Shown here one piece after another: positions 31,060-55,082 of a stretch of 64,000 nucleotides of DNA. Origin of the DNA: Cupriavidus basilensis (lineage in GTDB: Bacteria; Pseudomonadota; Gammaproteobacteria; Burkholderiales; Burkholderiaceae); NCBI RefSeq assembly GCF_000832305.1, contig NZ_CP010536.1, forward strand, positions 2,852,001-2,916,000, given 5' to 3'. Made by a program: the position numbers and the translations under genes. How positions within the stretch are numbered: position 1 is the stretch's first letter; every line of letters begins with the position of its first letter. The notes beneath the pieces are model-generated. The model ran no database searches. It was given only the letters and a program-made list of their open reading frames with translations, and was not told where the DNA came from.

Positions 31060-31233
31060 TGGTTCTCCTGATGAATCGTTCTTGACCGGCCCCGGGAAAA
31101 CGCACCGGGCGGGCTTGAAATCAATGGGATGACTCGCACGCAAAAAGCGGACCAAGTGATGCAAACCACTCGCCACACGCATAAGCGACGCGCGAACCAC
31201 CCCCGAAAATAGTTCTCGCCGGATGGTATAAGG

Positions 31234-31251
31234 TTGTCATCCACATGTCAA
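31234..31251 (+). promoter_or_regulatory. Pho-box-like heptamer pair, orphan
   Basis: TTGTCAT, four bases, ATGTCAA matches the 7+4+7 form of PhoB sites but points rightward, where the next genes are on the other strand. The base at 10 downstream gives only a poor -10 (AAAATT). Possibly chance. Confidence 0.25.
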
Positions 31252-31345
31252 AGTTCGTTACAAAATTCAAATAAAACGCTTTGCAATCAAGGCTATACGA
31301 CGAAAGTCGCAGATGCTTTCTCGGTTTGATTATGTCAACCGCGAG

Positions 31346-42635: not shown

Positions 42636-43112
42636 ATGAACCTGATCCTGTGGCGTCATGCCGAAGCCGAGGAGTTGTCTGGCGCGCTTGGCTTTTCCCG
42701 CAATGCCGACCTGCAACGCGCCCTGACCAAACGCGGACATAAGCAGGCGGATGCCTCCGCCGCATGGTTGCGCAGCCATCTGCCTCCCGGTACGCGGGTG
42801 GTCTGCAGCCCGGCCCTGCGTACGCGCGAAACCGCCGCGGCCCTGCGCGAGAACGCAGAGGTGTTGCCCGAGCTTGCCCCGGGTGCCGATGTCAGCGCGG
42901 TGCTGGCCGCGGTCGACTGGCCCCAAGGCGCCGAGCACACCGTGCTGGTCGGGCACCAGCCTTGGCTTGGCCAACTTGCCAGCCTGCTGCTGGCAGGCTC
43001 GGAAATGAACTGGAGCGTGCGCAAGAGCGGCATCTGGTGGCTGTCGGGGCGCACGCGCGAAAGTGAATCGCAGGTCGTGTTGCGCGCTGTCATCAATCCG
43101 GAATTTCTCTAG
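42636..43112 (+). CDS. sixA: SixA-like phosphohistidine phosphatase (histidine phosphatase family)
   Basis: 158 residues, the SixA size. The catalytic RHA motif is at the start (LILWRHAEAEEL), followed by SPALRTRETAAAL and the second histidine in VLVGHQPWLGQL. SixA removes phosphate from phosphohistidine on signalling proteins such as ArcB or the nitrogen PTS. The olsB-like gene starts 137 bases later and has its own Pho-type promoter, so they are probably separate units. Confidence 0.88.
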   Translation: MNLILWRHAEAEELSGALGFSRNADLQRALTKRGHKQADASAAWLRSHLPPGTRVVCSPALRTRETAAALRENAEVLPELAPGADVSAVLAAVDWPQGAEHTVLVGHQPWLGQLASLLLAGSEMNWSVRKSGIWWLSGRTRESESQVVLRAVINPEFL

Positions 43113-43157
43113 CATTTTTTGGCACCCCGCAACGGCGCGGCTTGGCTTTCCGGGCTG

Positions 43158-43213
43158 CCGTCACCGAACCGTCACGACTGCTTCACGGCACTGTCACCTG
43201 CCATCTCTACATT
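43158..43213 (+). promoter_or_regulatory. Four-repeat Pho box and -10 upstream of the olsB-like gene
   Basis: Heptamers CCGTCAC (43158), CCGTCAC (43169), GCTTCAC (43180) and CTGTCAC (43191) recur every 11 bases with 4-base spacers, as in PhoB sites (consensus CTGTCAT, 7+4). Exactly 10 bases after the last one is TACATT (43208-43213), a four-of-six -10 at the distance used by PhoB-dependent promoters. Start near 43220, 30 bases before the ATG. Confidence 0.75.
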
Positions 43214-43249
43214 CGACCGCAACAGTTTCGTCACCGAAAGGACATACTG

Positions 43250-44104
43250 ATGCGAGAGCTCCCGACGCCCACCCAGCCGTTGTTCGATTCCCTGCCCAGT
43301 GGCCTGTCAGGCCATTCGGCGCGGAGGCGTCTTCATCGCCAGCAACCTGCACAAGCACATGAACAAGCGCATGACCAGCCTGCTTTCAGCGTGGCGTGGG
43401 CGCGCCACCAGGATGAAGTAGAAGAAGCGCAGCGCCTGCGCTACAAGGTCTTCGCCGAAGAAATGGGCGCAAGGCTGAACCCGTCGAGGCCTGAACTCGA
43501 CGTGGATATGTTCGACGCCTATTGCGACCACCTGATCGTGCGCGATACGGCCACGCTCAAGGTGGTCGGCACCTACCGCGTCATGGCGCCCCACCAGGCC
43601 AAGCGCATTGGCTGCCTCTATGCCGAGTCGGAATTCGACTTGGTGCGCCTGGCTCACCTGAAGCCCAAGATGGTGGAACTGGGCCGCTCGTGCGTGCACC
43701 GCGACTACCGCTCGGGCAGCGTGATCATGGCGCTGTGGGGTGGCCTGGGCGAGTACCTGCAGCGCTGGGGCATCGAGTCGATGCTGGGATGCGCCAGCGT
43801 GCCGATGAGCGATGGCGGCCACTATGCGGCCAGCCTGTACCGGGTATTCGCCGAGCGCGCCCTGGCGCCGATCGAATATCACGCGTTCCCGCGCCTGCCT
43901 CTGCCGATCGACGAACTCAATCAGACGCTGGACGTAGAGCCGCCGGCGCTGATCAAGGGTTACCTGCGGCTAGGCGCGCGAATTTGCGGCATGCCGGCGT
44001 GGGATCCCGACTTCAACGTGGCGGACTTCCTCACGCTGCTGCGCGTCAACGACATGAACCCCCGCTATGCGCGCCACTTCCTTGGGCTGAACCGCGACGC
44101 CTGA
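43250..44104 (+). CDS. olsB: OlsB-like acyl-ACP N-acyltransferase (ornithine lipid synthesis)
   Basis: 284 residues from the ATG at 43250 (AAAGGA upstream); an in-frame codon at 43142 lies upstream of the predicted transcription start. The body is the Acetyltransf_5/OlsB type: AQRLRYKVFAEEMGARL, FDAYCDHLIVRD, VVGTYRVM, ELGRSCVHRDYRSGSVIMALW, then MLGCASVPMSD. OlsB links a 3-hydroxyacyl chain to ornithine, the first step to phosphorus-free ornithine lipids, which are often made when phosphate is short. A four-repeat Pho array upstream supports this. The second enzyme, OlsA, is not in the window. Related families with other acceptors cannot be excluded. Confidence 0.78.
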   Translation: MRELPTPTQPLFDSLPSGLSGHSARRRLHRQQPAQAHEQAHDQPAFSVAWARHQDEVEEAQRLRYKVFAEEMGARLNPSRPELDVDMFDAYCDHLIVRDTATLKVVGTYRVMAPHQAKRIGCLYAESEFDLVRLAHLKPKMVELGRSCVHRDYRSGSVIMALWGGLGEYLQRWGIESMLGCASVPMSDGGHYAASLYRVFAERALAPIEYHAFPRLPLPIDELNQTLDVEPPALIKGYLRLGARICGMPAWDPDFNVADFLTLLRVNDMNPRYARHFLGLNRDA

Positions 44105-44187: not shown

Positions 44188-45720
44188 TCAGGCGTACACC
44201 ACCTTGTAGCGCTTGCCGATGCGCTCCCACTCATCGGCTTCTTGCGCAAGGCTGTATTCGACCAGCGGGTTGGCCTCGATCCAGGCCTTGGGCAAGCGCA
44301 CCTCGAAACCTTCGTCCAGCGCATCCGAACGCTGGCCCACGGTGATCTCGGGCAGCGGCTCGTCGGCACGGCGCCGGCACAGCACGAACGCCAGGCGCAG
44401 GCTGAAGAGCATCCGCCAGTCCAGAAACTTGCCGCTGCCGGAAAGCTTGCCCAGCTTGCCGGCATGCCCGAGCAGCAGCGTTGCCAGCCGTGCCTGGTCG
44501 GTCTTCGAGAAGCCCGGCATATCGGCGTGCGTAGCGATGTACGCCGAGTGCTTGTGGTAGCCGCTGTGCGAGATGGTCATGCCGATCTCATGCAGCCCGC
44601 CGGCCCAGCCCAACAGTGCCAGATTGTCGTCGCGGCGCTCATTGCGCGGCTCGGGAAACTGCGCCAGCAAACCCAGCGCCGCCTGGCGCACGCGCTGGGC
44701 TTGCGCGCGGTCGACGCCATAGCGGCGCATGAACTGATCCACGGTGATGGTACGCATGTCCTCGTGGTGCGTGCGGCCCAGCAGGTCGTACAGCACGCCC
44801 AGGCGCAGCGCGCCATCGGTGACGTCCATGCGATCGATGTCGAGCTCGGCGAACACGCCGAGCATGATCGACAGACCACCTGGCAGCACGGGGATACGGT
44901 CCGCCTTCAGGCCCACCAGCTTGACGCGGTTGGCGTTCTCGGCCTTGACCAGCGCGCGCTTGAGGCGCTCCAGCCCTTCGCGGGTGATGCCGTGCTCGGC
45001 CGGGTTGTCGTTCATGCCGTTGAGCTCGATCAGTTCGGCCAGCGCGCGCGCCGTACCCGACGAACCCACCGCCTGCTGCCAGCCGGCCGCCCGGTACTGG
45101 CGCACGAGCACCTGGATCTCCCTGCGCGCGGCCAGTTCCGCCTGCTTCATCGCGTAGTCATCGACATTGCCGCTGGGGAAGAACTGGCGGCTGTGCGAGA
45201 CGCAGCCGATATAGAGGCTCTCCATCAGCTTGGACGTGTAGCCGCTGCCGATGATGAACTCGGTCGAGCCGCCACCGATATCGACCACCAGCCGGTTGCC
45301 CGCACAGGCCGGCGCATCGTGCGAGGCGCCCAGGTAAATCAACCGCGCTTCTTCGCGCCCGGCAATCACCTCAATCGGGAATCCAAGCGCGTGTTCGGCC
45401 TCGATCAGGAATTCCGACGCGTTCTTGGCTACCCGCAGCGTATTGGTTGCCACCGCCCGCACCTGGTCAGGGGAGAAATCGCGCAGTCGGTCGCCGAAAC
45501 GCCGCAAGGCGTCGATGCCACGCCGGCGGGCAGGCTGGTCCAGGTACTTGTCCGGCGTCAGGCCCGCGGCCAGTCGCACCGGCTCGCGCAGCGCATCGAC
45601 CTGGAATAGCTGGCTGGCCGGCCCGGATGCGGTCAAGCTCTCATCCACCCGCCCGATCATCAGGCGGAAGCTGTTTGAGCCCATGTCGACGGCGGCCAGC
45701 AAGCGAGGGGTTTGGTTCAT
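44188..45720 (-). CDS. ppx: Exopolyphosphatase, Ppx/GppA family
   Basis: 510 residues, opening LLAAVDMGSNSFRLMIGRVD with the ASKHA phosphate-1 motif, and NRLVVDIGGGSTEFIIGSG as phosphate-2. The C-terminal part has an HD-like region (WAGGLHEIGMTISHSGYHKHSAY). It releases phosphate from polyphosphate ends, and may act on pppGpp. It is divergent from ppk, the opposing enzyme; a Pho-type site between them is oriented towards ppk. Confidence 0.94.
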   Translation of the reverse strand: MNQTPRLLAAVDMGSNSFRLMIGRVDESLTASGPASQLFQVDALREPVRLAAGLTPDKYLDQPARRRGIDALRRFGDRLRDFSPDQVRAVATNTLRVAKNASEFLIEAEHALGFPIEVIAGREEARLIYLGASHDAPACAGNRLVVDIGGGSTEFIIGSGYTSKLMESLYIGCVSHSRQFFPSGNVDDYAMKQAELAARREIQVLVRQYRAAGWQQAVGSSGTARALAELIELNGMNDNPAEHGITREGLERLKRALVKAENANRVKLVGLKADRIPVLPGGLSIMLGVFAELDIDRMDVTDGALRLGVLYDLLGRTHHEDMRTITVDQFMRRYGVDRAQAQRVRQAALGLLAQFPEPRNERRDDNLALLGWAGGLHEIGMTISHSGYHKHSAYIATHADMPGFSKTDQARLATLLLGHAGKLGKLSGSGKFLDWRMLFSLRLAFVLCRRRADEPLPEITVGQRSDALDEGFEVRLPKAWIEANPLVEYSLAQEADEWERIGKRYKVVYA

Positions 45721-45841
45721 CGCGGTAGGGGAATGTGGGTAAAAGCCGCAAGCCGCGGCATAAATAACGGTGTCGGGCAGTCAGGTTCGCCCAACCGTAG
45801 AAAATATGTCTTTATCATGTCTGCATCGTGACAAAATCACA

Positions 45842-45859
45842 TTGTCATCAATTTGACAT
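45842..45859 (+). promoter_or_regulatory. Pho box upstream of ppk
   Basis: TTGTCAT (45842-45848), CAAT, TTGACAT (45853-45859) fits the 7+4+7 PhoB site and reads towards ppk. The -10 expected 10 bases on (AAAAGT) is weak. It ends 45 bases before the preferred ppk start at 45905. Confidence 0.6.
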
Positions 45860-45904
45860 GATTCTATGAAAAAGTCGCCGCATTACCAAAAGAAGGTCAT
45901 GCCT

Positions 45905-47989
45905 ATGTCGACAAGCCCACCCGGCACGCTGCTCAACCGCGAAATGGGCATTCTGGAATTCAATACGAGAGTCATGGCACAGGCAGCTGACGCCAGCGTG
46001 CCACTGCTCGAACGTCTGAAATTCATCTGTATTGTTTCAAGTAATCTGGACGAGTTCTTCGAGATCCGCATGGCCGGCTTGAAGGAGCAGATGCGTGACA
46101 ATCCTTCCGGCATCACACCCGACGGCCTTTCCTTGCAGCAGGCATACCAGATTGTCACGGAGCGCGTGCAAAAGCTGGTGACCATGCAGTATGACATGCT
46201 GCAAAACGTGATTTTCCCCCTGTTGGAGAAAGAAGGGGTGTTCTTTCACCTCGCCTCCACCTGGAACGAGGCGCAGCGCGAATGGGCTCGCAGCTTCTTC
46301 ACACGCGAACTCGGCCCGGTCCTGACGCCGATCGCGCTGGACCCGGCCCACCCCTTCCCGCGGGTGCTCAACAAGAGCCTGAATTTCGTCATTGAATTAT
46401 CGGGCAAGGATGCCTTCGGCCGGGAGGCCGACCTGGCCATCGTGCAGGCGCCCCGCGCGCTGCCGCGCGTAGTCAGGATGCCTGAGCAACTCTCGGGCTA
46501 TCCCTACGGATTTGTGCTGCTGTCGTCCTTCATGCAAGCCTTCGTGCATGAGCTGTTCCCCGCTATCAAGGTCAACGGCTGCTATCAGTTCCGCGTCACC
46601 CGCAACTCTGACCTGTTCGTGTCGGAGGACGATATCACGGACCTGCGCGAGGCACTGCAAGGTGAGCTGCCGACCCGCCACTTCGGCGACACCGTGCGCC
46701 TGGAAATCTCGTCCGATACCCCGCCGGCCATGGCGCGCCGCCTGCTGCTCGAATCCGGCCTGGGCGAGCAGGACGTGTACCGCGTGAGCGGCCCGGTCAA
46801 CCTGGTGCGGCTGATGCAGATCCCCGACCTGGTCGACCGCCCCGCCCTCAAGTACCCGCCGCACGTGCCGGCGCCGGTCAAGGTGTTTGCGCCCGGCGCT
46901 TCGATGTTCGACGCGATCCGCCAGCAGGACGTGTTGCTGCACCATCCCTACGAGAGCTTCAGTTCGGTGCTCGACTTGCTGCAGCAGGCCGCCGTCGACC
47001 CTGCCGTGGTAGCCATCAAGCAGACCGTCTACCGCACCGGCAACGAGTCGCCGGTGATGGAGGCGTTGATGACCGCGGCGCGCAATGGCAAGGAAGTCAC
47101 GGTGGTGGTGGAACTGCTGGCGCGCTTTGACGAGGAAACCAACATCAACTGGGCCGAGCGGCTCGAATCCGCCGGCGCGCATGTGGTCTATGGCGTGGTT
47201 GGCCACAAGTGCCATGCCAAGATGCTGCTGATGGTGCGCCGCGAACTGGAAGGCGCCAAGAGCAAGCAGTTCAAGCTGCGCCGCTACGCGCACCTGGGCA
47301 CCGGGAACTATCATCCGCGCACCGCGCGGCTATACACCGATTTCGGCCTGCTCACCGCCAACGAGAAGATCTGCGAGGACGTCCAGCATGTGTTCCAGCT
47401 GCTAACGGGCACTGCGGGCACCATCCGCCTGAATCACCTGTGGCAGTCGCCGTTCACCATGCAGAGCAATCTGGTGGAGCATATCCGCGCGGAGGCCCGC
47501 AACGCCCGTGCCGGCAAGCCCGCGCGCATCATGGCCAAGATGAATGCGCTGCTGGAACCATCCATCATCGAAGAGCTGTACAAGGCATCGCGCGCTGGCG
47601 TGAAGATCGACCTGATCATCCGTGGGGTGTGCGCGCTGCGCCCAGGGGTGCCGGGCCTGTCGGAGCACATCACGGTGCGCTCCATCGTCGGGCGCTTCCT
47701 CGAGCATCACCGGGTCTATTACTTCCTGGCCGGCGGCACGGAGGTGGTCTACCTGTCCAGCGCGGACTGGATGGACCGCAACCTGTTCCGTCGCGTCGAG
47801 GTGGCATTCCCGGTGCTGGACAAAGTACTGAAGGCACGGGTCATCAAGGAGAGCCTGCGGGTGCATCTGCACGACAATGCCTCCGCATGGATCATGCAGT
47901 CCGACGGCAGCTACATCCGCAAGCACACCAAGTCCAAGCAGCCGCACGTCAGCCAGAACGACCTGCTGGCCCTGTTCGGCAGCGCCTGA
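45905..47989 (+). CDS. ppk: Polyphosphate kinase 1
   Basis: 694 residues from the ATG at 45905, chosen because AGAAGG lies eight bases upstream and the earlier in-frame ATGs (45866, 45899) are too close to the promoter or ribosome site. The sequence opens LLNREMGILEFNTRVMAQAAD, has VSSNLDEFFEIRMAGLK, and the phosphorylated-histidine segment HLGTGNYHPRTARLYTDFGLLT. It reversibly builds polyphosphate from ATP. Convergent with phoR; a hairpin (48003-48031) separates them. Confidence 0.95.
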   Translation: MSTSPPGTLLNREMGILEFNTRVMAQAADASVPLLERLKFICIVSSNLDEFFEIRMAGLKEQMRDNPSGITPDGLSLQQAYQIVTERVQKLVTMQYDMLQNVIFPLLEKEGVFFHLASTWNEAQREWARSFFTRELGPVLTPIALDPAHPFPRVLNKSLNFVIELSGKDAFGREADLAIVQAPRALPRVVRMPEQLSGYPYGFVLLSSFMQAFVHELFPAIKVNGCYQFRVTRNSDLFVSEDDITDLREALQGELPTRHFGDTVRLEISSDTPPAMARRLLLESGLGEQDVYRVSGPVNLVRLMQIPDLVDRPALKYPPHVPAPVKVFAPGASMFDAIRQQDVLLHHPYESFSSVLDLLQQAAVDPAVVAIKQTVYRTGNESPVMEALMTAARNGKEVTVVVELLARFDEETNINWAERLESAGAHVVYGVVGHKCHAKMLLMVRRELEGAKSKQFKLRRYAHLGTGNYHPRTARLYTDFGLLTANEKICEDVQHVFQLLTGTAGTIRLNHLWQSPFTMQSNLVEHIRAEARNARAGKPARIMAKMNALLEPSIIEELYKASRAGVKIDLIIRGVCALRPGVPGLSEHITVRSIVGRFLEHHRVYYFLAGGTEVVYLSSADWMDRNLFRRVEVAFPVLDKVLKARVIKESLRVHLHDNASAWIMQSDGSYIRKHTKSKQPHVSQNDLLALFGSA

Positions 47990-48060: not shown

Positions 48061-49404
48061 TCAGGCCGCCTTCTGCGGCGACTGTCCTGGCCGCGGCAAG
48101 GCGCTAGGCATATAGCCGCTGCGATCAACCGGGAAGACCACGCGGAACACGCTGCCGCGCCCCACTTCGCTGGTGATGCGCAGGTCGGCATGGTGGCGCG
48201 ACAGCACATGCTTGACAATGGCGAGCCCGAGGCCGGTCCCACCGGTGTCGCGCGAACGGCTGCGGTCGACCCGGTAGAAACGCTCGGTGAGGCGCGGGAT
48301 ATGGTCGGCGGCAATGCCCAGGCCCGTATCGGTGACCGAGAAAATGGCGTGCTCATTCTCGTAGCTCAGCGCGATGCTGATGCGCCCGCCCTCCGGCGTA
48401 TAGCGCACCGCATTGGAAACCAGGTTGCCGAAGGCCGACAGCAGTTCACGCTCCGCACCGCGGATCGTGACGGCCGGATCGATCTGCGCGGAGATCTGGT
48501 GCCCGCCCTGGGACAGCGCCTCGGCGTCGTGCACGAGATGCGCAACCAGCTCGGCCAGGTCGATCCGGTCCTGGCTCGGCGGCTGCTCGTCGCTTTCCAG
48601 CTTGGCCAGCACCAGCAAGTCCTCGACCAGGTGCTGCATGCGCATGGACTGCACCAGCATCATGTCGAGGTAGCGGTTGCGATCCTGCTCCGACACGGGC
48701 AGGTCGCGCACGGTTTCCAGGAAGCCGGTCAGCACCGTCAGTGGCGTCTTCAGTTCGTGGGAGACGTTGGCGACGAAATCCCTGCGCATCGCCTCGGTGT
48801 TCTCCAGCTTGGTGATGTCGTGTGTCAGCACCAGCTTGCGGCTTTCGCCGTAAGGCAGGATCTGCACAGCGATCACGCTGCGCTTGTGCTCGCCCATGTC
48901 GCGCATCACCAGCGGTTCATCGAAACGCTGCAAGTGCAGGTACTGGACGAATTCCGGCCGCCGGATCAGGTGGGTGATGCGCTGGCGCACGTCGCGCCGC
49001 GCATTGAGGCCCAAATGCTGCTCGGCCACATCGTTGCACCATTCGATCTGGTCGGCATCATCCAGCATCAGAACGCCATTGGGCGACGCCTGGATAGCCT
49101 GGATAAAGCGGGTATGTTGCTGCTCGACCTGCAACACCTGGGTGCGCCAGCGCTTGACCAGGCGATGCAGGCGGTAATACACCTCGCCCCATAGCCCCAG
49201 CGCGCTGGGAATCTCGCCGTAAGCTGGCGCATCCAGCACTTTCCAGAGCCGGTTGATCTGGTAGATGTAATAGAGCAGATGCCCCAGCAACCCGACGCAC
49301 AGCATGGCCAGCGCGGGCACGGGGCCAAGGAAGAAGTACAGCCCCGCCGAAGCCAGGGCCAGTAGAATCAGGATGGCCGCCGAACGGGCCCAGATGACGT
49401 TCAT
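48061..49404 (-). CDS. phoR: Phosphate regulon sensor histidine kinase
   Basis: 447 residues. Two N-terminal hydrophobic spans (AAILILLALASAGLYFFLG and LAMLCVGLLGHLLYYIY) without a large periplasmic loop, a PAS-like region (IQASPNGVLMLDDADQIEW), then HisKA with the phospho-acceptor in NVSHELKTPLTVL and an ATPase domain (NLVSNAVRYTPEGG, DTGLGIA, GGTGLGLAIVKH). It senses phosphate through PstSCAB-PhoU and phosphorylates PhoB. It lies 116 bases after phoB with a perfect inverted repeat between, so its level may differ from PhoB. Confidence 0.95.
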   Translation of the reverse strand: MNVIWARSAAILILLALASAGLYFFLGPVPALAMLCVGLLGHLLYYIYQINRLWKVLDAPAYGEIPSALGLWGEVYYRLHRLVKRWRTQVLQVEQQHTRFIQAIQASPNGVLMLDDADQIEWCNDVAEQHLGLNARRDVRQRITHLIRRPEFVQYLHLQRFDEPLVMRDMGEHKRSVIAVQILPYGESRKLVLTHDITKLENTEAMRRDFVANVSHELKTPLTVLTGFLETVRDLPVSEQDRNRYLDMMLVQSMRMQHLVEDLLVLAKLESDEQPPSQDRIDLAELVAHLVHDAEALSQGGHQISAQIDPAVTIRGAERELLSAFGNLVSNAVRYTPEGGRISIALSYENEHAIFSVTDTGLGIAADHIPRLTERFYRVDRSRSRDTGGTGLGLAIVKHVLSRHHADLRITSEVGRGSVFRVVFPVDRSGYMPSALPRPGQSPQKAA

Positions 49405-49520: not shown

Positions 49521-50228
49521 TCAGTGGCTGGGCGCGCGAGCCAGGCGGTAGCCGCTGCCGCGCACCGTCTCGATCATGTTGCTGTAGCCGCCGGGGGTCA
49601 GCGCGGCGCGCAGGCGCTTGATATGCACGTCGACGGTCCGCTCTTCCACGAACACGTGATCACCCCAGACCTGGTCCAGCAACTGCGAACGGCTGTGAAC
49701 GCGCTCCGGATGCGTCATCAAAAAGTGAAGCAGACGGAACTCGGTAGGACCCAGGTCCAGCTTGATCAGGCCAGATTCATCCTGGCCGGTGACCCGATGC
49801 GTGGCCGGGTCAAGGCGCAGGCCATTGATCGCAACGACGTCGTCGGTTAGTTGCGGGGCGCGGCGGCGCAGCACGGCCTTGATGCGGGCCAGCAGTTCCT
49901 TGGGCGAGAACGGCTTGGTGACGTAGTCGTCCGCGCCGGCCTCGAGCCCCAGCACCTTGTCCTGCTCCTCGCTGCGCGCGGTAAGCATGATGATCGGAAT
50001 CTGCTTGGTGCGGTCGTTATTGCGCAGTTCCTTGGCGAAGGTCGCTCCCGACTTGCCCGGGAGCATCCAGTCGAGCAGCACCAGGTCCGGCAGCACGTCG
50101 CTCATCAGCGACAGCGCCTGCTCGGCGTTATAGGCCCGGATCGGATAATGTCCCGCGTGTTGCAGGTTGACCGCGATCAGCTCGGCAATCGCGGGTTCGT
50201 CTTCGACAACAAGAATGCTGCTTGGCAT
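49521..50228 (-). CDS. phoB: Phosphate regulon response regulator
   Basis: 235 residues: receiver domain with DVLPDLVLLDWMLPGKSG (the phosphorylated Asp), EAGADDYVTKPFSPKEL, and an OmpR-type winged helix ending EERTVDVHIKRLRAALTPGG, VRGSGYRLA. It binds Pho boxes such as those before pstS, ppk and the olsB-like gene. It follows phoU by 23 bases. Confidence 0.97.
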   Translation of the reverse strand: MPSSILVVEDEPAIAELIAVNLQHAGHYPIRAYNAEQALSLMSDVLPDLVLLDWMLPGKSGATFAKELRNNDRTKQIPIIMLTARSEEQDKVLGLEAGADDYVTKPFSPKELLARIKAVLRRRAPQLTDDVVAINGLRLDPATHRVTGQDESGLIKLDLGPTEFRLLHFLMTHPERVHSRSQLLDQVWGDHVFVEERTVDVHIKRLRAALTPGGYSNMIETVRGSGYRLARAPSH

Positions 50229-50251: not shown

Positions 50252-50956
50252 TTAACTCAGCGCTTCGCGCTCCATGTCCTCACGCGAGGCGTGGCGGACG
50301 TCGGTTCCCTTGACGATGTAGATGATGAATTCAGCGATGTTCTTGGCGTGGTCGCCAATGCGCTCGATCGCCTTGGCGATAAAGAGGAAATCCAGCGCGA
50401 CCGAGATCGTGCGCGGGTCTTCCATCATATAGGTGATGAGCTTGCGCACGAACGCACGGAATTCGTCGTCGATGGCCTTGTCGTCCTTGACGATCCGGGC
50501 GGCAGCCACGGTGTCCAGGCGCGCAAAGGCATCGAGTGCCTGGCGCAGCAGCGCGATCGCCAGATCACCCGAGAATTTCACCTCGGAGTAATTGATCTGG
50601 TGGGCACCGGCGTCTTCCATGATGTGCTTGGTGCGCTTGGCGATTTTCTCCGCCTCGTCGCCGGCGCGCTCCAGGTTGGTGATGGTCTTGGAAATCGCCA
50701 TCACCAGGCGCAGGTCGCGCGCGGTCGGTTGCCGGCGCGCGATGATGTTGCCGCAATCGGCATCGATCTCGAGTTCCAGGGCATTCAGGTGGTGCTCGCG
50801 CGCGATGACCTGATCGGCCAGGCCCGCGTCGAACTCCGAAAGCGCCCGCATGGCGTTCTCGATCTGCGACTCGACCAGACCGCCCATCTGCAGCAGTTTC
50901 GTGCTGATGGCGTTGAGGTCGGCGTCGAATTGGGTCGACAGATGCTTGTCAGACAT
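50252..50956 (-). CDS. phoU: Phosphate transport regulator PhoU
   Basis: 234 residues, all-helical with the two PhoU repeats (LLQMGGLVESQIENAMRAL and a second beginning HQINYSEVKFSG). Metal-binding acidic helices are present (NLERAGDEAEKIAK, IERIGDHAKNIAEFI). PhoU relays the state of PstSCAB to PhoR and damps the response when phosphate is plentiful. It is 55 bases after pstB. Confidence 0.97.
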   Translation of the reverse strand: MSDKHLSTQFDADLNAISTKLLQMGGLVESQIENAMRALSEFDAGLADQVIAREHHLNALELEIDADCGNIIARRQPTARDLRLVMAISKTITNLERAGDEAEKIAKRTKHIMEDAGAHQINYSEVKFSGDLAIALLRQALDAFARLDTVAAARIVKDDKAIDDEFRAFVRKLITYMMEDPRTISVALDFLFIAKAIERIGDHAKNIAEFIIYIVKGTDVRHASREDMEREALS

Positions 50957-53964: not shown

Positions 53965-54999
53965 TCAGTTGTACAACGCCTTGCCCGAGCCGTCCTTGAC
54001 CGAGCTCTTCCAGGTCGCGCGGATCTGGTTCACCACGGCGTCCGGCAGCGGTACATAGTCAAGGTCGCTGGCCATGTTGCCGCCGCTCTTGTAGGCCCAG
54101 TCGAAGAACTTCAGCACTTCGGCGCCCTGCGCTGCCTTTTCCTGGTGCTTGTGTACCAGGATGAAGGTCGCGCCGGCGATCGGCCATGCCGTCTTGCCCG
54201 GTTCGTTGGTCAGGATCTGGTAATAGGTCTTGCTCCAGTCGGCGCCGGCTGCTGCCGCCTTGAAGCCGTCGTCACCGGGCTGAACCACTGCACCGGCAGC
54301 GTTCTTCATGTTCAGGTGGGTCATCTTGTTCTGCTTGGCGTAGGCGTACTCGACGTAGCCGATGGCGCCGTTCAGGCGTTGCACGAAAGCGGCCACGCCT
54401 TCGTTACCCTTGCCACCGGTGCCACCGCCCGGCCAGTTGACCGTGGTGCCCTCGCCCACCGAGCTCTTCCAGTCCGTGCTGACCTTGGACAGATAGTTGG
54501 TGAAGATGAAGGTGGTGCCCGAACCATCGGCGCGGCGCACCGGCAGGATGTCCTGGTTCGGCAGCTTGGCGTGCGGGTTCAGTGCCTTGATGGCGGGATC
54601 GTCCCACTTCTTGATCTTGCCCAGGTAGATGTTCGCCAGCACGTCGCCGGTGATGGTCAGTTCGCCCGGCTTGATGCCTTGCAGGTTGATCACCGGCACC
54701 ACGCCGCCGATCACCGTGGGAAACTGCACCAAGCCTTGCTTGGCCAGTTCTTCGTCCTTCAGGGGCGCGTCGGAAGCACCGAAGTCGACAGTCTTGGCGC
54801 CGATCTGCTTGATGCCGCCAGACGAGCCGATGGATTGATAGTTGACCTTGTTACCCGTTGCTTTCTGGTATGCATCGGCCCACTTGGAATACACGGGCGC
54901 CGGGAAAGAAGCGCCAGCACCGGTAATTTCCGCCGCGAACGCAGTGCCCGCCACCACCAACGACACAATGCCTGCTACGGCAGTCTTGACCAGCTTCAT
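53965..54999 (-). CDS. pstS: Periplasmic phosphate-binding protein
   Basis: 344 residues from the ATG at 54999 with GGAGGA before it. Signal peptide [24 protein letters not shown], then [18 protein letters not shown], the phosphate-site [22 protein letters not shown] and [20 protein letters not shown]. High-affinity receptor of the PstSCAB importer and, through PhoU, part of phosphate sensing. First gene of the operon; two Pho boxes lie upstream. Confidence 0.97.
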
Positions 55000-55025: not shown

Positions 55026-55082
55026 ATGACAATTTTTTGACAAGTCGAACTTTAAGCTCCGACTATGACAATTCAATGACAT
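55026..55082 (-). promoter_or_regulatory. Two Pho boxes upstream of pstS
   Basis: On the minus strand: distal ATGTCAT-TGAA-TTGTCAT (55082-55065), followed exactly 10 bases later by TAAAGT (55054-55049), a four-of-six -10; and proximal TTGTCAA-AAAA-TTGTCAT (55043-55026), whose own -10 position is poor. The distal pair probably drives transcription; the proximal pair lies across the start region and could be a second activator site or a repressive one. Confidence 0.75.

Follow-up and report, generated by a model that had tools for sequence, protein, structure and literature searches.

A predicted PhoB-dependent promoter with four Pho-type repeats upstream of an olsB-like gene in Cupriavidus basilensis

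Cupriavidus is a workhorse for metal resistance and bioplastics, and the locus described here raises the question of whether a row of short repeats in front of an olsB-like gene could tie its membrane lipids to the phosphate supply through PhoB. The window, meaning the whole stretch of 64,000 nucleotides that was analysed, lies on the larger of the two contigs of the host, a soil bacterium with a genome of 8,421,483 bases. The preliminary description had placed four heptamers at 43158, 43169, 43180, and 43191 and a TACATT exactly 10 bases past the last one; read directly, the starts are correct to the base and the TACATT occupies 43208-43213. The parts of the array and the gene behind it are as follows, with conservation given for the 40 Cupriavidus-type records introduced below.

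43158-43164, plus strand: heptamer 1, CCGTCAC, read directly; TCA in 40/40 records, the preceding G in 39/40
43169-43175, plus strand: heptamer 2, CCGTCAC, read directly; GTCA in 40/40
43180-43186, plus strand: heptamer 3, GCTTCAC, read directly; CA in 40/40, the preceding T in 38/40
43191-43197, plus strand: heptamer 4, CTGTCAC, read directly; TGTCA in 40/40, mean column identity 0.97
43198-43207, plus strand: 10-base spacer CTGCCATCTC between heptamer 4 and TACATT
43208-43213, plus strand: predicted -10 element TACATT, 10 bases past heptamer 4; 40/40
43237-43242, plus strand: probable ribosome-binding site AAAGGA; by eye, most of the Cupriavidus-type relatives viewed have AAAGGAC or a close variant
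43250-44104, plus strand: olsB-like gene, putative L-ornithine N-alpha-acyltransferase, 284 aa (PF13444, 1e-36)

The heptamers are 7-bp repeats at 11-bp steps that match CTGTCAT/C, as a Pho box would have them, the first two bases being weak in heptamers 1 to 3. Heptamer 4, which is the closest to RNA polymerase, is also the best conserved of the four in the 40 records. The 4-base linkers CGAA, GACT, and GGCA are not A/T-rich as in the Escherichia coli Pho box, which we treat as species variation because, according to excerpts of PMC4415409, these bases are less conserved and motifs differ between species. No TTGACA/TATAAT-type promoter was found in 43000-43300, as expected if PhoB substitutes for the -35 element, and neither a second sigma70-type promoter nor a terminator-like site was found in the same interval. 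The GTCAC of the leader at 43230 was rejected as a fifth heptamer, being out of register at 37 bases past the start of heptamer 4. A 5' leader hairpin that would pair TTTCG with CGAAA around TCAC, considered by eye, was dropped because it is broken in relatives.

We took the ATG at 43250 as the start of olsB; the mechanical open reading frame from the TTG at 43142 would begin upstream of the repeats. The GNAT domain Acetyltransf_5 (Pfam ID PF13444) covers the whole core of the product (profile positions 1-101 of 102, 1e-36), and the top NCBIfam models are two L-ornithine N-acyltransferases (NF052555 and NF052554, 166 and 163 bits), which bears out the OlsB-like identity proposed in the preliminary description as homology. 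We file the gene as OlsB-like because it lies under the equivalog cut-offs, with 166 of 320 and 163 of 350 bits; the labels of these models, BRUA and RHOCB, suggest that they were built for alphaproteobacterial proteins. At E 0.001, a search of the genome gave a single OlsB match. An OlsA-like acyltransferase, the best of four scanned among five found, is encoded around C1:3426885-3427220 and reaches 138 and 124 bits with the NCBIfam OlsA models (cut-offs 300). No array of the olsB kind was found in the DNA upstream of this predicted OlsA gene, and neither the four-core nor the two-heptamer genome scan has a match there.

The neighbourhood is rich in phosphate genes. Family models confirm the ppx/ppk and pst-pho neighbours that had been claimed for olsB, as well as a sixA-like gene.

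42636-43112, plus strand: sixA-like histidine phosphatase, upstream of olsB (TIGR00249, 63 bits, cut-off 74.5; PF00300)
44188-45720, minus strand: ppx (TIGR03706, 314 bits, cut-off 307)
45801-45834, minus strand: Pho-box-like site before ppx, TTGTCAC-4-CAGACAT-10-TATTTT; same form in the 14/14 relatives examined
45899-47989, plus strand: ppk1 (TIGR03705, 946 bits, cut-off 466); alternative start of the reading frame at 45866
48061-49404, minus strand: phoR (TIGR02966, 451 bits, cut-off 334)
49521-50228, minus strand: phoB, the proposed activator (TIGR02154, 346 bits, cut-off 296)
50252-50956, minus strand: phoU (TIGR02135, 237 bits, cut-off 130)
53727 down to 51012, minus strand: pstC, pstA, and a pstB-like ATPase downstream of pstS (PstA and PstC models over cut-off; pstB by eye)
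53965-54999, minus strand: pstS (NF008171, 527 bits)
55049-55082, minus strand: pstS Pho box, ATGTCAT-4-TTGTCAT-10-TAAAGT, our internal yardstick

The gene order is sixA and olsB (plus strand), ppx (minus), ppk (plus), and then phoR, phoB, phoU, and the pst genes (minus), of which pstS is the first to be transcribed. PhoB and PhoR, both over their NCBIfam cut-offs, are encoded 5-7 kb from the olsB array. The pstS promoter has the geometry of the olsB promoter, namely a heptamer, 4 bases, a heptamer, 10 bases, and the -10 element. The ppx-ppk divergent region (45801-45875) carries Pho-box-like sites on both strands; there, TTGTCATCAATTTGACAT points towards ppk, without a good -10 element at 10 bases.

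How specific the olsB array is depends on how strictly it is described. When up to three mismatches are allowed, a pattern of four KTCAY cores in steps of 11 bp matches the genome 38 times and a reversed-pattern control 27 times, so most of these loose matches are noise. Without any mismatch, the pattern occurs at the olsB site alone in all 8,421,483 bases. The three four-core matches with one mismatch are the sites before a plcP-like and a phytase-like gene, both described below, and C1:2403, behind which no clear gene was seen. The four-heptamer matches at C1:2403, C1:380569, C1:4245082, C2:69025, C2:547845, C2:1567422, C2:2937980, C2:3015444, and C2:3343568 show no obvious phosphate gene promoter and were set aside. 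A stricter three-heptamer pattern has 4 genome matches at 3 places against 1 in the control; 2 of these matches are the olsB site, and the other two places have no obvious phosphate gene behind them. Two heptamers followed by 10 bases and TANNNT were rejected as a scan because the pattern is too unspecific (48 genome matches against 29 in the control). The clear ones among its 9 exact matches are olsB and pstS only; we did not take as real the sites of this kind whose downstream genes look rapZ-like or phasin-like by eye or encode EAL and SpoIIE proteins by Pfam.

A scan with a PhoB matrix had been proposed in the preliminary description. With a matrix of the PhoB heptamers plus the -10 element, hand-set from the E. 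coli consensus, the olsB site comes out at the top of the 64-kb window (33.4, the next place having 21.8), and none of 3,999,890 positions in Markov-1 random sequence reaches 33.4. Scored per pair of heptamers including the -10 element, the pstS box, which has two good repeats only, reaches 28.9 versus 20.1 for the last two olsB heptamers. At 31223-31267 on the plus strand, the two-heptamer site TTGTCATCCACATGTCAA is also fairly strong, with a matrix score of 23.1 including the -10 element; it lies between two minus-strand open reading frames (ABC ATPase and NlpC/P60-like, by eye); no convincing plus-strand gene was seen after it.

Relatives of the host keep the array. We compared 56 named olsB loci, comprising 40 Cupriavidus-type loci with upstream DNA, 12 of Ralstonia type, 3 others, and one Cupriavidus locus without upstream DNA, which was dropped before the counts. 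By their OlsB proteins, 41 of the 56 are Cupriavidus-type (82-99% identity), the closest being Cupriavidus basilensis OR16 (99%), and two of them are labelled otherwise ("Burkholderiaceae bacterium 16" and "Ralstonia sp. 25mfcol4.1"). The register, the 10-base distance, and TACATT are kept in 40/40 Cupriavidus-type records. The loss of the 11-base spacing in close relatives that keep olsB, named in the preliminary description as the sign that would speak against a Pho promoter, thus did not occur. All four heptamers read ..KTCAY in 38 of the 40, the other two having GTGCCAC as the third, and the four-heptamer array is the top-scoring place in each of the 40 loci, most of which span about 20 kb.

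In an alignment of the 40 records anchored on TACATT, which are close relatives and uncorrected for kinship, the mean column identity of heptamers 1-4 is 0.82, 0.89, 0.87, and 0.97 and that of the -10 element 1.00, with 0.44 for the 50 bases upstream of the array. The linkers (0.89, 0.71, and 0.86), the spacer (0.73), and the 12 bases past the -10 element (0.80) are also conserved, so the conservation is not confined to PhoB contacts.

All 12 Ralstonia-type loci have, as their best site, three in-register heptamers (mostly TTGACAC, TTGTCGC, and CTGTCAC or CTGTCAT), with TAGAAT after a further 10 bases. By eye, the Ralstonia array (L072-L083) looks split, with two further heptamers upstream at a 9-base step. 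At 9 of 13 more distant olsB loci, the best site of the locus scores above 21 and is an array in which two to four heptamers precede a 10-base spacer, some of these arrays including imperfect heptamers; no convincing array was found at the distant loci L089 (16.4), L126, L129, and L090.

The same layout recurs in the host genome before genes with a possible part in phosphate economy. One of the one-mismatch four-core sites precedes a calcineurin-like phosphoesterase (PF12850/PF00149); the next gene on that strand encodes a GT4 glycosyltransferase.

L171 8941-9957 and 7667-8884, minus strand: putative plcP-glycosyltransferase operon behind a four-heptamer array, same genome

LpxH proper is a separate gene with 254 bits, the plcP-like protein reaching 35 bits. 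We call the operon putative plcP-agt because its make-up matches the PlcP-Agt pathway as described in excerpts of PMC8528852; the assignment of plcP and agt rests on family, operon, and promoter, and the PlcP homologue search, whose best 120 of 8000 scored candidates are mostly LpxH-type where named, is not proof. The gene was searched for in 24 genomes of the genus, one of which (54% complete) gave no match; in 23/23 that hold it, the best site of the locus is four heptamers with a 10-base spacer, standing 82-83 bases before the gene start. The -10 element is weak (CCCAAT, CTCAAT, or CTGAAT), and the host's third heptamer is CCTTAAC. The shared layout suggests that PhoB probably controls phospholipid breakdown too. 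Separately, a phytase-like protein (PF13449; L132 3990-5458, plus strand) lies behind four in-register heptamers, 10 bases, and CATCGT, likewise a one-mismatch four-core match.

We extended the scan to 200 genomes of the order with a pattern of four cores, 10 bases, and TANNNT at up to two mismatches. The layout was matched in 124 of the 200 genomes and its reversed control in 7; an OlsB-like protein is present in 138 and a plcP-like protein in 93. Positions were counted on 150 listed matches from 82 of the 124 matching genomes and are hence lower bounds. Among the matches listed, 12 are exact, and 10 of these lie upstream of olsB, at 0-73 bases from its aligned start, so that olsB carries most of the exact cases listed. 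At least 37 of the 150 listed matches (37 genomes) stand before olsB, at least 11 before a plcP-like gene, and 102 before neither; among the same listed matches, none at up to two mismatches precedes olsB in 101 of the 138 genomes that carry the gene. Across the order, the four-core layout is thus a Pho-type promoter format of general use. One genome, G124, contributes 11 of the 150 listed matches, all among the 102 elsewhere; 10 of the 11 fall on an 11-bp tandem repeat of GTCATTACCCT and variants (G124:C30:51802-51954) that mimics a row of Pho heptamers. The genes olsB and plcP lie within 9 kb of each other in 19 of the 78 genomes holding both, on one strand in 15 of the 19. In some they nearly touch, being 96 bases apart in G030 and overlapping in the alignments of G164 and G200, and in G178 plcP comes directly after the array and is itself followed by olsB.

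On these data we consider it highly probable that the olsB site is a sigma70 promoter dependent on phosphorylated PhoB, from which olsB would be transcribed at low phosphate. The PhoB site recognised in the preliminary description is supported by the spacing kept in 40/40 relatives, by PhoB and PhoR in the genome, and by the like geometry at pstS. One alternative overlaps with a PhoB-activated promoter and differs in the basal level: PhoB would activate, yet olsB would also have basal transcription from the same or the sixA promoter, making ornithine lipids partly constitutive with a boost through phosphate. We see this as possible, if rather unlikely. Five Burkholderia sensu stricto species with constitutive ornithine lipids also have a predicted olsB Pho box, according to excerpts of PMC7814305, and sixA lies upstream on the same strand with no terminator-like site found in 43000-43300; against this, no second sigma70-type promoter was found in that interval, and conservation falls upstream of the array.

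It is very unlikely that the repeats are bound by another regulator of the OmpR/PhoB family instead of PhoB. Other members of the family do recognise tandem repeats that recur about every 10-11 bp, but the repeats here have the core of PhoB sites, and pstS, ppx, the phytase-like gene, and the phosphoesterase are also preceded by this layout, in versions of two to four heptamers. We likewise give little credit to an olsB-like gene that makes a different N-acyl amino acid: the OlsB models are the best by far (166/163 bits versus 57 for OlsF and 22 for GlsB) and an OlsA-like gene is present (138 bits), even if the FeeM and GlsB (glycine) models match weakly, the OlsB scores are under the equivalog cut-offs, and olsB of Acinetobacter is linked to a lysine lipid too (excerpts of PMC11828411). 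A coincidental repeat of TCAC words in G+C-rich DNA, to which the abundance of loose patterns (38 versus 27 in the control at up to three mismatches) might point, has next to no probability given the single exact match in the genome and its retention in 40/40 relatives while the flank drifts. The olsB array is not a chance arrangement; its sequence, register, uniqueness, and conservation are established, as are the families of the genes concerned.

For the PhoB-dependent promoter, the four repeats leave room for two PhoB dimers, which would bind head-to-tail on 22 bp each. The gene-proximal dimer would replace the -35 element and bring RNA polymerase to TACATT, switching on olsB transcription at low phosphate. 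OlsB would then N-acylate ornithine, and the OlsA acyltransferase encoded elsewhere would complete the ornithine lipid. The plcP-glycosyltransferase operon would probably be switched on in parallel, combining phospholipid breakdown with a glycolipid product. From the sequence we infer PhoB occupancy, induction at low phosphate, and the lipid products, and a shortage of phosphate very probably leads the cell to alter its membrane, via the predicted PhoB switch before olsB. The candidate PhoB targets are olsB, the putative plcP-glycosyltransferase operon, pstS, ppx, and the phytase-like gene, and the array geometry may be usable to find lipid-remodelling genes across Burkholderiales.

A doubtful extension, offered as speculation, is that in Burkholderiales the four-repeat, 10-base layout is favoured for membrane-lipid replacement, with olsB and plcP switching later and more sharply than pstS. 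Several weak repeats would need two cooperating PhoB dimers, as against the single strong pstS box; the higher pair score of pstS, which has just two good repeats, suggests that olsB may have such a need and may switch later or more sharply than phosphate uptake. If this were true, cells would import phosphate first and only then dismantle phospholipids.

The individual elements of this promoter are familiar from E. coli, where PhoB dimers bind 22-bp direct-repeat boxes head-to-tail, with seven conserved and four less conserved bases as in our array, and where the box usually lies near the -10 element in place of the -35 element (excerpts of PMC4415409 and PMC4971064). The E. coli 4-bp linkers are A/T-rich (excerpt of PMC4971064), whereas those of Cupriavidus are not; further differences are that three of the four heptamers end in C more often than in T and that two boxes stand in one register.

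The putative plcP-agt operon has its counterpart in Pseudomonas aeruginosa, where PlcP-Agt yields glycolipids at low phosphate; common to both is a phospholipase C-type PlcP with a glycosyltransferase in an apparent operon behind a Pho box, the Cupriavidus genes being putative by family, operon, and promoter and set beside the Pseudomonas PlcP by its description in excerpts of PMC8528852. In Acinetobacter baumannii, a phoR deletion mutant does not make the aminolipids at low phosphate, and olsA does not respond to phosphate; this species and Cupriavidus are alike in having a Pho box before olsB and none before olsA. A. baumannii is a gammaproteobacterium with a CTGTCATNNNNCTGTCAT-type box, and excerpts of PMC11828411, from which these statements are taken, describe no four-repeat array.

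The nearest precedent is Burkholderia sensu lato, which has the gene, the bacterial order, and the proposed regulator in common with the Cupriavidus case. Excerpts of PMC7814305 report predicted Pho boxes before olsB in this group and an exchange of phosphatidylethanolamines for ornithine lipids at low phosphate in P. xenovorans LB400 ("data not shown"). The matrix used there is 18 bp long (two repeats), whereas the Cupriavidus promoter shows four repeats throughout the genus, with a constant spacer of 10 bases and a -10 element that does not vary. The words Cupriavidus and Ralstonia are absent from the main text of PMC7814305, and "ornithine lipid" and "olsB" were not found in the excerpt of PMC12117332. 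A search by title and start of abstract, which left subscription papers mostly outside, found no paper on the membrane response to phosphate limitation in Cupriavidus or Ralstonia. Predicted Pho boxes before olsB (Burkholderia sensu lato) and phosphate control of olsB (Acinetobacter) are thus already known; new here are the double box, its strict geometry and conservation, and the link to plcP. With the unusually complete and conserved olsB promoter of Cupriavidus, a new group would join those for which this kind of response is known.
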